From a bacterium (GTDB lineage: Bacteria; CSSED10-310; JAJRTK01): DNA of 5,548 bases. Under the pieces are notes generated by a model. That model was not told the origin of the DNA, made no database searches, and saw only the letters and a program-made list of their open reading frames with translations. Of the stretch, positions 119-4,725 are shown one piece after another. Made by a program: the position numbers and the translations under genes. The stretch lies in the NCBI GenBank assembly GCA_024278345.1, contig JAJRTK010000477.1:1-5548 (forward strand). Direction: 5' to 3'. Within the stretch, counting starts at the first letter, position 1. Every line of letters begins with the position of its first letter.

Positions 119-1600
119 CTACGAAGCCGTCGTCACTTCACTGACAAAATCCGCCGCGGCGCCCTTGGGCTTGCGCCGAAGCATCAGTGATTTGGCGGCC
201 TGCCAGTACATTGCGATATCCCCTTTGTTCTTGATGTTCCGGACCAGATGGAAAAGCTGTCTGGGCCGCAGATAAAAGGAGCGGGTGGCGTACCGTTGCC
301 AGTATTTGATATCCTCGGGAGTCCGGCCCTTGGGAGTGTAGACGGGGTCGAAGTCCGTGTAACCCGCCTGGGAAGAAAACCTGGACCAGTCCCGATTGTC
401 GAAACCTCCCTCTTCCATGGCGACCTGGTAAAGGGCCGTCCCCGGATAGGGTGTAGCAATGGAGAACTTACAGACGTCCAGCTTCAGCTCCTTGGCCAAA
501 GCGATGGAGCGTTTGGTCTCTTCCACGGTCTCCGTGGGAAGCCCCAAAATCATCGTCCCGCGAACCTTGAGCCCCGCTTTCCTAGCCGTATTCACCGCCC
601 ACCGGATCGTGCTGAGGTTCGTCCCCTTCTGGATCAGATCCAACAGCCGCTGCGTCCCGCTCTCGACGCCGTACGAGATGAGAGCACACCCGGCCTCCTT
701 CATCTTCCTGCAAAGCTCCAGATCCACCTGATCGGCACGGCAAGCCGTCGTCCAGACCGCCTTTTTGTGAAGGCCGCGCTCAATGAGCTCCGAACAAATA
801 TCCATGGCCCGCTGCTTGTTCACGCTGAAATTGTCGTCCAGAACAATGACTTGCCGGCCTCCGTGCTCGTTGACCAAGATCTCCCACTCATCCACCACGT
901 TCTTGGCACTCCGCGCTCGGTAGCGGTAACCCGACATCTGCCGAGCCGAACAGAAAATGCACTTGTACGGACAACCTCGAGAAGTGATGATCACCCGAAT
1001 CGGCTCCACGAAAACAGCGTCCGGCACCTGGTGATACCGGTTGAGAGGAATCCCCTCCAAATCCGGGAAAGGCAATGCATCGAGATCCGTGGGCAACGGA
1101 CGATCAGGATTGTGGACCACCCGGCCATTCCGCCGCCAAGTCAACCCCGGAATCCGATTCATCTCCTGCCCCGCCACCTCCGCCAAGACAAGCTCATGCA
1201 GGGTTTCCTCGCCCTCGCCCCGCACCACGTAGTCGAACAGCTCTTCCTTCATCGTTTCGTCGGGCAGAACCGTCGGATGCACTCCGCCCATCACCGTCTT
1301 GATGCCCGGGAAATTCTCTTTGACCACTCGCGCCACTCGCTGGCTGGCGGCGTACATCGGAGTCTTGCAGGTGATCCCCACGAACCCGGGCTCGTAATCT
1401 CGAACCACTTCCGACAGCGCGGATTCGTCCATGTTCTCCACCTGCCCGTCAAGAATCTTCACCTCAAGCCCCTTCGACTTCAGGTAAGAAGACAAATACA
1501 TCAGGCTGATGGGAGGCAAAGAGGGGGCTACCTTCTGGAAGTCCCCATAAAAGGCCGAAGAGTTGAAGTGGGGAAAAACCAGCAGCACTCTCTTATTCAT
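119..1600 (-). CDS. Cobalamin (B12)-binding domain radical SAM enzyme, substrate unknown
   Basis: The 493-residue product starts at ATG 1600, because GAGGAG lies 6 bases upstream (1607-1612). A TTG codon at 1654 is in frame but has no such site. Residues 2-140 look like a B12-binding Rossmann domain (RVLLVFPHF at the start, GGVHPTVLPDE near 105-115, and VRGEGEETL near 126). The radical SAM core follows, with a CxxxCxxC cluster motif (CPYKCIFC, C210, C214, C217), YGVESG near 310 and GTMILGLPTET near 348. Known members with this layout bind a 4Fe-4S cluster, SAM and often cobalamin, and do methylations, ring closures or rearrangements. The DxHxxG cobalamin-ligand motif is not visible, which is usual in this class. 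The C-terminal 90 residues are rich in aromatic and basic residues and may close over the active site. No substrate gene, carrier or partner is adjacent, so the reaction cannot be named. Family assignment is firm; function is open. Confidence 0.93.
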   Translation of the reverse strand: MNKRVLLVFPHFNSSAFYGDFQKVAPSLPPISLMYLSSYLKSKGLEVKILDGQVENMDESALSEVVRDYEPGFVGITCKTPMYAASQRVARVVKENFPGIKTVMGGVHPTVLPDETMKEELFDYVVRGEGEETLHELVLAEVAGQEMNRIPGLTWRRNGRVVHNPDRPLPTDLDALPFPDLEGIPLNRYHQVPDAVFVEPIRVIITSRGCPYKCIFCSARQMSGYRYRARSAKNVVDEWEILVNEHGGRQVIVLDDNFSVNKQRAMDICSELIERGLHKKAVWTTACRADQVDLELCRKMKEAGCALISYGVESGTQRLLDLIQKGTNLSTIRWAVNTARKAGLKVRGTMILGLPTETVEETKRSIALAKELKLDVCKFSIATPYPGTALYQVAMEEGGFDNRDWSRFSSQAGYTDFDPVYTPKGRTPEDIKYWQRYATRSFYLRPRQLFHLVRNIKNKGDIAMYWQAAKSLMLRRKPKGAAADFVSEVTTAS

Positions 1601-1606
1601 CTCGAT

Positions 1607-1612
1607 CTCCTC
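1607..1612 (-). promoter_or_regulatory. Ribosome binding site that sets the radical SAM start
   Basis: On the minus strand this reads GAGGAG, 6 bases before ATG 1600. It decides in favour of the 493-residue form, which begins MNKRVLLVFP at the first beta strand of the B12 domain. The 18 extra residues of the longer reading are acidic and have no family counterpart that I recognise. Confidence 0.75.
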
Positions 1613-1738
1613 ATCGTCTGCTTCCCATCGGCCCGGCCAAAGCTCTTCGCTCAATCTAAACCGAAGTCAACCACCACCACCGCCCGGAAGATTTTCTTGT
1701 GCTCTGTCTCAACCTGCCACACTCTCCAGAGCCGCCTA

Positions 1739-2549: not shown

Positions 2550-4349
2550 TCATTCTTTACTTTTGCGCCCTCTGGAGGCGGATTTTGCTCGCCTTGGCTT
2601 GGCGGCAGCCTTTTCTTCGATCTTCTTTCCCGTCTGGCGCTTGGGATCGAAGATCCGTCCCAGAAACCCGATGGTGATGGCGTAAGAGGGAACGACGCCT
2701 TCGAAGCCGAGGCCCCGAGAGAGCGTCTCTCCCTTCCGAAGGGGGCAATCAGAGGCATAGTAGGCGACATTGAGCTCGAAGCCATCATCGAAATAGCCGA
2801 GCTTCGCCGACTGTTTGAGCTTCTTGAAGTAGGGCACGCCTTCCATCTCCAGGCCCATCATCCGCCATTTGTCGGCGTAGAACCGGAGCATCTCGTTGTT
2901 TTGCAGGATCGTCCCAAGGACCGTGAGCATGGGGCCACCGGAGAAGATTTCCATAACGTTTCCAAGGCACTCCAGGTCTTCCTTGGTGATGCCGTTGGGA
3001 ACGACCAGATCGTAAACATCGAGCCGACCGTAATTGAGAAAGTAGGAGGGAAGCATGATGCAGCCGCGGTGCCCCACAAGAGTCCCGGCCTTGCCCATGA
3101 TGGAAATGGAGCGGATACGCTCGTTGAATTCCTCGCAAAGGACCCCGATGATTTTTTCGGCCTGGGCGCCGAAAGCGTATTCGAAGTTCAGGAGGAAGGG
3201 CTTGTCCTTCTCGATGAGTTCCCGGTCTACGGGGATTCTGGAATCCAGCTTGTCCAAATCGAGCTTGGCAACGTCGATGAGCTGGACCGGAATCCCGGTG
3301 TAGCGGCGATCCGGCAGGAAATAAATCCCCTCCCGGGCCTGATACTCCTTGAATTCCTTCTCTCGCTTTGCCGCCTGGGACAAATAGTTCCGCAGAAAAT
3401 AATAACGCAAGTCATCCGTGTCCTGGCCCTTGGCAAGAGCGCGGCCGGTTTGGAGAATTTCAGAATTCTCCGGCTCCACCAGCATCTCGTCCAGCGCCCC
3501 ACGGATCTCCGGCTCCCTCACAAAACCAGAGACGCAGTTCACGATGGAGTGGGTATTGGAGGAAATGATGTGAACCGGCCGCCCCTCAAGGCCCTTCTCC
3601 TGGATAAAGTCCAAAATATCCTGGCACCATTCCCGGGCGCGATTGTCCAGGTTCGCCGAGGTAATGGAGCTATGGACCTTCACCGTGATGTCATGATCGT
3701 GGCGTGCCAGCTCGAACATCTTCGTCATAAGTTTCCCCTTCCAGGAGCCGTCCAGCTCCATGATCTCCTCTTCGGTGATTCCAAGCTCGAAGGCCAGCTT
3801 CGTGAAAAGTTGGTTCTTCCGGGCAACGCTCAGACCGGCGTCGTGGGAAATCGTAAAGCCCGGCATCTCCACCTGGGTGGGACTGACCTCTTCCAGGGCC
3901 TCCACAAGTCCCGAAGCGATGAGCTTGGCCTTGACCTTGCTAGCCTCGATGACAAAAGAACAGAGAATCGTCACCAGATCCAGAATATCACTCACGTCCT
4001 CCCGCACCACCATGATGATTTCCGAATCCGAAATCTGGTAGGTTTCCCGCCGCTTCACGTCCGAGGAAACCTCCGTGATCCCCTCGTAACGCCCGAAGTT
4101 CTCCGGCACACGGCGCTTGACCAGAATCGTGTCCATCGACGAGATATTGTTCGGAAGCCTTTTCGTCGAGTAGATCAAGGCACCGATATCGATGATATTA
4201 TCTTCGGAAACGTAGGGGTGGAGACTGGGCTGGATCTCCTTGAAAACGTCCAGTAGATCGTAGATTCGGATGCGGCCATTGATCACGCCGTGGCGAACGT
4301 AAGTCTCGAAATCTCGGATAGCCTTGGATATCGTCTGGATCTCTTCCAT
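2550..4349 (-). CDS. Conserved-looking protein of unknown role with a nucleoside-phosphorylase-like C-terminal domain
   Basis: The 599-residue protein (starting MEEIQTISKA) has no signal peptide or membrane segment, so it is probably cytoplasmic. Residues 1-375 are mixed helical and unrecognised; they include HIISSNTHSIVNC near 260-272. Residues 389-570 resemble the PNP/UDP phosphorylase fold: FEYAFGAQAEKI (389-400), MGKAGTLVG (418-426, like the Gly-Ala-Gly phosphate/base strand), GLEMEG (499-504, like the Met-Glu ribose-binding pair) and ASD (532-534, like the base-contacting Asp). The last 30 residues are almost all Lys, Arg, Ala and Ser, a probable disordered nucleic-acid-binding or flexible tail. 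I recall similar unnamed proteins of 550-600 residues, possibly a DUF6909-type family, but cannot verify that. Start: AAGGAG at 4362-4367 is 12 bases before ATG 4349 and directly abuts ATG 4361, so 4349 is preferred; GTG 4391 is unlikely. Reading-frame integrity is certain; function is inferred. Confidence 0.88.
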   Translation of the reverse strand: MEEIQTISKAIRDFETYVRHGVINGRIRIYDLLDVFKEIQPSLHPYVSEDNIIDIGALIYSTKRLPNNISSMDTILVKRRVPENFGRYEGITEVSSDVKRRETYQISDSEIIMVVREDVSDILDLVTILCSFVIEASKVKAKLIASGLVEALEEVSPTQVEMPGFTISHDAGLSVARKNQLFTKLAFELGITEEEIMELDGSWKGKLMTKMFELARHDHDITVKVHSSITSANLDNRAREWCQDILDFIQEKGLEGRPVHIISSNTHSIVNCVSGFVREPEIRGALDEMLVEPENSEILQTGRALAKGQDTDDLRYYFLRNYLSQAAKREKEFKEYQAREGIYFLPDRRYTGIPVQLIDVAKLDLDKLDSRIPVDRELIEKDKPFLLNFEYAFGAQAEKIIGVLCEEFNERIRSISIMGKAGTLVGHRGCIMLPSYFLNYGRLDVYDLVVPNGITKEDLECLGNVMEIFSGGPMLTVLGTILQNNEMLRFYADKWRMMGLEMEGVPYFKKLKQSAKLGYFDDGFELNVAYYASDCPLRKGETLSRGLGFEGVVPSYAITIGFLGRIFDPKRQTGKKIEEKAAAKPRRAKSASRGRKSKE

Positions 4350-4361
4350 CGGATCTCTCAT

Positions 4362-4367
4362 CTCCTT
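4362..4367 (-). promoter_or_regulatory. Shine-Dalgarno site of the phosphorylase-like gene
   Basis: The minus strand reads AAGGAG and is immediately followed by ATG 4361, with a second in-frame ATG at 4349. A zero spacing is not workable for 4361, whereas 12 bases to 4349 is long but usable. This favours the 599-residue form by elimination. Confidence 0.5.
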
Positions 4368-4573
4368 ACACGGTGCCTGAAGCCCAATCACCAGGCGGAT
4401 CGAATAGTGTCACCAAACAGGGATCGACCATAAAAGGGGTTATGCCATCGGTCATTCAGCGTTGGGTTCCGCTCCCGGCGGCGGCAATCCGTCCGCCGCC
4501 ACTCGCCCGGAACGCCGCCATCGCCAGCCACGGCCCCAAGAAAAGATCCACGTCATTCCAAACCATTCCCCCT

Positions 4574-4633
4574 CGAATCCCAAGCCTGAATCTCCCACGC
4601 GCGCCGGCCCGAACCCCAAGCTTGAATCCCTCA
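4574..4633. repeat. Imperfect 24-bp direct repeat, 36-base period
   Basis: Copies at 4574-4597 and 4610-4633 agree at 20 of 24 positions (pattern CGAAYCCCAAGCYTGAATCY, then YCYCA-like ends); all four differences are C/T transitions. They are separated by a 12-base GC-rich spacer. No third copy is visible at the expected position on either side. Candidate roles are paired operator sites for the divergent genes, or leftover of a local duplication. Confidence 0.6.
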
Positions 4634-4725
4634 CTATAGGAACCCACCAACCAGATTGTCAATTCAGTCAATGGGCAAAAGACCGCGATCTCTTTGCGGG
4701 TTTCCCCCCAAAACACGAACCATCG

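Follow-up and report, generated by a model that had tools for sequence, protein, structure and literature searches.

A DUF6909 protein with a predicted nucleoside-phosphorylase fold as a candidate AMP-cleaving N-glycosidase

The stretch of DNA analysed here (the window; 5,548 nucleotides) encodes a DUF6909 protein of 599 codons from its ATG (positions 2553..4349, minus strand; stop codon at 2550-2552). Its C-terminal domain almost certainly has the PNP/UDP-phosphorylase fold, judged from a predicted model and its structural matches. The explanation we lean towards is a purine-nucleotide N-glycosidase of this fold, which probably cleaves AMP and replaces classical AMP nucleosidase (AMN). That AMP is the main substrate is plausible, at slightly under an even chance. 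We infer catalysis, a preference for hydrolysis over phosphorolysis, the AMP substrate and regulation from the comparisons described below.

The window protein was a full-length member of DUF6909 (PF21850; E 1.6e-102), scoring 344 bits against a gathering cut-off of 27. Profile positions 3-534/535 matched residues 31-567 as one unit. The first-pass annotation, made from the sequence, had assigned the N-terminal part to no family; the single Pfam unit spans that part as well, while the absence of a known function stood, as Pfam lists DUF6909 as a family of unknown function. The PNP_UDP_1 profile (PF01048) did not match the window protein and matched 9 of 61 DUF6909 members weakly (E up to 0.1, best 7e-5), below its cut-off. 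No NCBIfam family covered the window protein, and none of the 61 members matched an AMN model (TIGR01717 or TIGR01721). A sequence search of the PDB gave no match for the window protein or the family profile, and an open-access literature search found no paper naming DUF6909.

An AlphaFold2 model built from 61 diverse members reached a pLDDT of 90 and a pTM of 0.89; an earlier model from five sequences (pLDDT 60) was set aside. Foldseek placed AMP nucleosidase (2guw; E 2.3e-7) at the top of its matches for the model, and MTAN, PNP and uridine phosphorylase (UP) came just below. Since the E-values for these four lay near one another, the fold alone cannot pick AMN. Realignment with VIA gave Z scores of 19-20 to DeoD, MTAN and UP, with an rmsd of 2.6-2.9 A over 205-216 residues and a model range of 236-571. 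By structure, the predicted model thus belongs to the PNP/UDP-phosphorylase fold (Z about 20, >200 residues), the fold that the first-pass annotation had proposed. The same signal was obtained without any structure model. In local profile-profile comparisons, the C-terminal half matched a small HpnG-type profile at 91% and a pooled phosphorylase profile at 95%, and column-shuffled controls of the same comparison stayed below 1%. The N-terminal half matched neither kind of profile.

The fold domain comprised residues 236-571 (2637..3644, minus strand, as are all features of the protein). It was preceded by an alpha/beta region that is family-specific and lies outside the fold matches (residues 1-235; 3645..4349). 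This N-terminal region is basic and strongly conserved, with Y60, R64-L65-P66, R101, D124 and K138 invariant in the family alignment. Structure match, conservation and alignment placed strand 1 and its loop at VHIISSNTHSIVN (residues 259-271; 3537..3575), in which N265 lined up by eye with AMN N205. From the model secondary structure and the match ranges, a helical insertion of ~65 residues (about 275-340; 3330..3527) is predicted to separate this strand from the FEYAFGAQ strand. A domain start at about residue 375-385 had been suggested earlier and has to be moved: the structure alignment ran over 236/258-571, so that ~235 residues precede the domain and the insertion (~275-340) lies within it. 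Residues 385-396, FLLNFEYAFGAQ, are a later strand and loop of the fold and not its beginning. By profile and sequence comparison, this strand and loop, FLLNFEYAFGAQA (residues 385-397; 3159..3197), is the counterpart of INFGMGSANAA in AMN-like proteins. It is followed by a Gly loop, SISIMGKAGTLVGHRGCIMLP, which contains K420 (residues 414-434; 3048..3110; conservation and sequence comparison), and by the equivalent of the family signature EGTxDNY, which has diverged in the window protein (residues 439-446; 3012..3035). Conservation then marks GLEMEG with the Met502-Glu503 ribose pair (residues 499-504; 2838..2855), and conservation and shared signatures mark ASDCPL with the base-contacting Asp534 and a D-x-P in common with AMN (residues 532-537; 2739..2756). 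The basic tail noted previously is real (residues 572-599; 2553..2636); it is predicted to be disordered (pLDDT 46-58), is not conserved and is missing from the other aligned members.

The three motifs on which the first-pass annotation was built, MGKAGTLVG (418-426), GLEMEG and ASD (532-534), were all present, and their conservation was far beyond chance. In the family alignment, M502, E503, K420, N265, H267 and N271 were each kept in 60/61 members, and D534 and P536 in 61/61, which bears out the expectation that the Glu of GLEMEG and the Asp of ASD would be conserved among homologues. In a set of 85 sequences, E501, M502 and E503 were kept in 84/85 and D534 in all 85. The order of the Met-Glu pair and the base Asp matches that of the fold, and, judged by homology, the conserved residues, up to 240 positions apart in the sequence, would lie on its pocket side. 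We regard activity as a purine N-glycosidase as probable.

Two phosphate-binding Arg residues operate in DeoD and Udp, and D204 of DeoD and D197 of MTAN are the counterparts of the base Asp. In a by-eye alignment in structural register, the positions of DeoD R24 and R87 were S268 and I417 in the window protein, and that of S90 was K420. The phosphorylase arginines (DeoD GDPLR and IIRVG) thus had no counterpart, the two positions being hydrophobic or small across DUF6909, and the combination of an Arg pair and a Ser for binding phosphate was not found. The missing Arg pair makes hydrolysis more likely than phosphorolysis, and, given activity, we regard a hydrolase as very probable. A phosphorylase, in which phosphate instead of water attacks C1' to yield a sugar 1-phosphate, would be in keeping with a fold common to many phosphorylases, and K420 and N-terminal Arg, which are basic and conserved, might serve to bind phosphate; the replacement of both Arg positions by Ser268 and Ile417 makes it improbable. 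Asp534 lies at the position of DeoD D204, MTAN D197 and AMN D428 (PMC9584410), which favours a purine substrate.

Three signatures, GK[AC]G, EGTxxxY and SDxP[LM], were present in DUF6909 and AMN-type enzymes and in 0/33 other PNP_UDP proteins, a comparison set dominated by PNP and MTAP. Reading of the sequences of E. coli Mtn, Udp and DeoD likewise showed all three to be absent. Among AMN-type enzymes, GK[AC]G and EGTxxxY were common to the short AMN-like form only. This form (Bacteroidota, TIGR01721/PRK07115) shares with DUF6909 a Lys-bearing loop (GKCGG/GKAG), DMET/EMEG and SDxP[LM], and its GDxxLPxxxIRGEGTSN[DE]Y parallels GDIMIPxxxxxEGTxDNY of DUF6909. Unlike DUF6909, it is ~260 aa long and without an N-terminal domain, and no sampled genome holds both.

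Classical AMN (E. coli Amn, TIGR01717, PDB 1t8s/2guw/7uwq), the top structural match, has in common with DUF6909 an N-terminal domain followed by a PNP-fold C-terminal domain, an Asn on strand 1, a Gly loop without the phosphorylase Arg, a [DE]ME pair and SDxPL. The two differ in the insertion after strand 1 and in their N-terminal domains. The first-pass annotation had pointed out that AMP nucleosidase, too, carries an extra N-terminal domain; no sequence relation was found between the two (hhalign probability 0.1%). The profile of the classical N-terminal domain (AMNp_N, PF10423) matched neither the window protein nor any other protein of its genome. In AMN, R381, W383, K436, H188' and Y189' hold the phosphate or stack on the base (PMC9584410). 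These residues had no clear equivalents in DUF6909; R381, W383 and K436 were not recognisable. DUF6909 may work like AMP nucleosidase and lies outside that family as defined.

MTA/SAH nucleosidase and HpnG share with DUF6909 the fold, the Gly loop, EMEG/EMEA and (I/V)SD. They lack the N-terminal region, the Lys of the Gly loop, EGTxDNY and SDxP, and the position of MTAN Glu12 is not kept in DUF6909. When genomes were scanned broadly with the DUF6909 profile, the one weak cross-match was to an HpnG-like gene, which adjoins a radical SAM gene resembling HpnH. The profile comparison with AMN (54%) was not stronger than those with HpnG/MTAN-type profiles. This result, together with the unrecognisable phosphate-binding residues of AMN, would suit a nucleosidase that cleaves a different adenine compound in place of AMP: MTA, SAH, a cyclic nucleotide, a dinucleotide or a modified nucleotide. 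We consider such a substrate unlikely, given the AMN-type signatures, the mutual exclusion with AMN-like genes, and a genome that already encodes an MTA phosphorylase and an MTAN-like protein.

The mutual exclusion was seen in a set of 238 high-quality genomes from a single phylum. This phylum is taken to be Bacteroidota, since one of its members, L007, falls among Bacteroidota in the tree. Of these genomes, 34 carried DUF6909 and 101 a strong AMN-like gene (E no higher than 1e-40); none carried both, against 14.4 expected. Counted by genus, the overlap was 0 against 7.6 expected. The hypergeometric chance of zero overlap was 9e-10 for genomes and 8e-6 for genera, in statistics that ignore phylogeny, and a single large family (f318, Flavobacteriaceae-like) accounted for part of the exclusion. 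Both kinds of gene occurred, in different genera, within each of the families f325 and f330, which is the pattern of a replacement. No true AMN was found among the sampled genomes of a second phylum, that of genome G253, so that the exclusion is uninformative there. The distribution agrees with AMP hydrolysis, and the earlier suggestion of kinship with AMP nucleosidase gains from it, as it does from the top Foldseek match and the common signatures. If DUF6909 supplies the AMP nucleosidase that Flavobacteria and others are missing, it would close a gap in the purine metabolism of these bacteria.

As an AMP-cleaving N-glycosidase, the protein would hold its substrate between N265 and H267 of the strand-1 loop, K420 of the Gly loop and the pair M502-E503, which would grip the ribose. 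D534 would protonate the leaving purine, and water would then cleave the N-glycosidic bond. The products of AMP would be adenine and ribose 5-phosphate, and the family would stand in for classical AMP nucleosidase. The basic N-terminal region probably serves in 5'-phosphate binding, oligomer assembly or regulation of activity.

The sole exception in the 61-member alignment for the pocket residues was a second DUF6909 copy in the same genome (L002; G000:C202:1785-3494), which was 36-37% identical to the window protein and adjoined it in the tree, with a branch of 2.56 vs 0.72 for its sister. This copy had lost N265, H267, N271, K420, E501, M502, E503 and others together; it retained D534 and most fold-defining glycines. 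As the lost residues map to the pocket side by homology, their joint loss has the look of a dead pocket. Judged by its sequence, the copy is probably a pseudoenzyme and may be a partner subunit.

An N-terminal PF00027 domain (cNMP_binding) was found in L102 and four spirochaete members (E 4e-13 to 2e-16), and a profile built from other fused members detected the same domain in L103. The six fused members (L013, L014, L015, L017, L102 and L103) all carried the FGE-x8-R phosphate-binding cassette when their sequences were read. They formed one clade (100/100) within a larger group that includes the window protein (99/97). In the window protein itself Pfam detected no cNMP domain. In the fused subgroup, cAMP or a similar signal probably acts as a switch for the enzyme, and the fused form would tie adenylate breakdown directly to a second messenger. 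No precedent for a cNMP-PNP fusion or for such a tie was found in the open-access literature, which likewise gave no paper describing PNP nucleosidases as effectors of CBASS. A more elaborate proposal is that DUF6909 constitutes a third kind of AMP nucleosidase, one that has an N-terminal domain of its own, that in the cNMP-fused spirochaete members and their relatives a cyclic nucleotide directly gates AMP destruction on or off, and that the dead copy is perhaps a regulatory subunit. We rate it as possible and rather doubtful as a whole.

Several DUF6909 loci adjoin response regulators, an MCP-signal protein or a BLUF photoreceptor, pointing to regulation. At one locus (L015, 5083-5535), a gene for a BLUF blue-light sensor lies directly 5' of the cNMP-DUF6909 gene. 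Such neighbours, the cNMP fusions and the degenerate second copy could also be expected of a non-catalytic nucleotide sensor or scaffold that uses a PNP-like pocket for binding only. Apart from the degenerate copy, practically every member retains the catalytic Glu and Asp, which leaves that role quite improbable, a shade more so than a phosphorylase. The fused members might further be defence effectors of a Pycsar-like kind, destroying adenine nucleotides upon a cyclic mononucleotide signal. Their layout of a cNMP-binding and a nucleotide-destroying domain is that of PycTIR, which their cNMP part matched weakly in PADLOC (E 7.5e-4). This match was confined to the cNMP domain, no nucleotide cyclase was seen among the neighbours read, and the non-fused members resemble ordinary chromosomal genes; we give a defence role hardly any credence. 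The window protein had no match in PADLOC.

A profile-guided scan confirmed at least 578 DUF6909 relatives, 80 of which were retained. These were mostly from Bacteroidota, with others from Spirochaetota, Desulfobacterota, Myxococcota and Acidobacteriota, one from Eremiobacterota and one cyanobacterial record. The family was patchy: it occurred in 15/118 Bacteroidota genera sampled and, in family scans of sampled genomes, in 15/235 genomes of G253's phylum and 7/42 of G374's phylum. Broad sampling gave 5/386 genomes, one of the five being the HpnG-like cross-match, and within the window's own small phylum DUF6909 was found in this genome only. With the fold, active site and testable reaction proposed here, an unassigned family of many Bacteroidota and several other phyla gains a footing.

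Two of the records had unexpected labels. The DUF6909 gene of a Xenococcaceae cyanobacterium MAG (L018, 5289-7007) clustered with that of Flexithrix (Bacteroidota) in the tree, through gene transfer or a binning error. A Flavobacterium-like DUF6909 locus was found in a record titled Bifidobacterium breve MAG (L067; CALPIE020000012.1), which is probably a mislabelled or contaminated bin. In Flavobacteriia (e.g. L077, 7516-8592), DUF6909 often stands behind a GH3-family gene and heads a polysaccharide cluster, and it lies ~13 bp before a conserved large gene labelled Wzz-like by eye and without a Pfam match. This neighbourhood was set aside as a functional clue since it is confined to one lineage and other phyla differ.

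In the window, the gene best starts at the ATG at 4349-4347 (minus strand), with an RBS-like AAGGAG at 4362..4367 (minus strand), 12 nt upstream. A GTG at 4391 would lengthen the ORF and is a possible alternative with no better support. Genes for ribosomal protein L28 and a B12-binding radical SAM protein lie downstream on the same strand; the latter (119-1654, minus strand) is BchE/HpnJ-like, with scores below both cut-offs. A uridine kinase gene on the plus strand is divergent from the DUF6909 gene. Pyrimidine salvage, prompted by this neighbour and by a UPRTase gene beside L103, was set aside: the neighbours are not conserved, and the conserved base Asp speaks for a purine. Rfam gave no match for a putative leader region near 4633-4662. 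At these positions, a strong sigma-70-like site (minus strand; TTGACA-18-TATAGT, 11/12 matches) lies ~285 bp 5' of the DUF6909 start, inside the divergent gap toward the uridine kinase gene, and would imply a long leader if it is the promoter.
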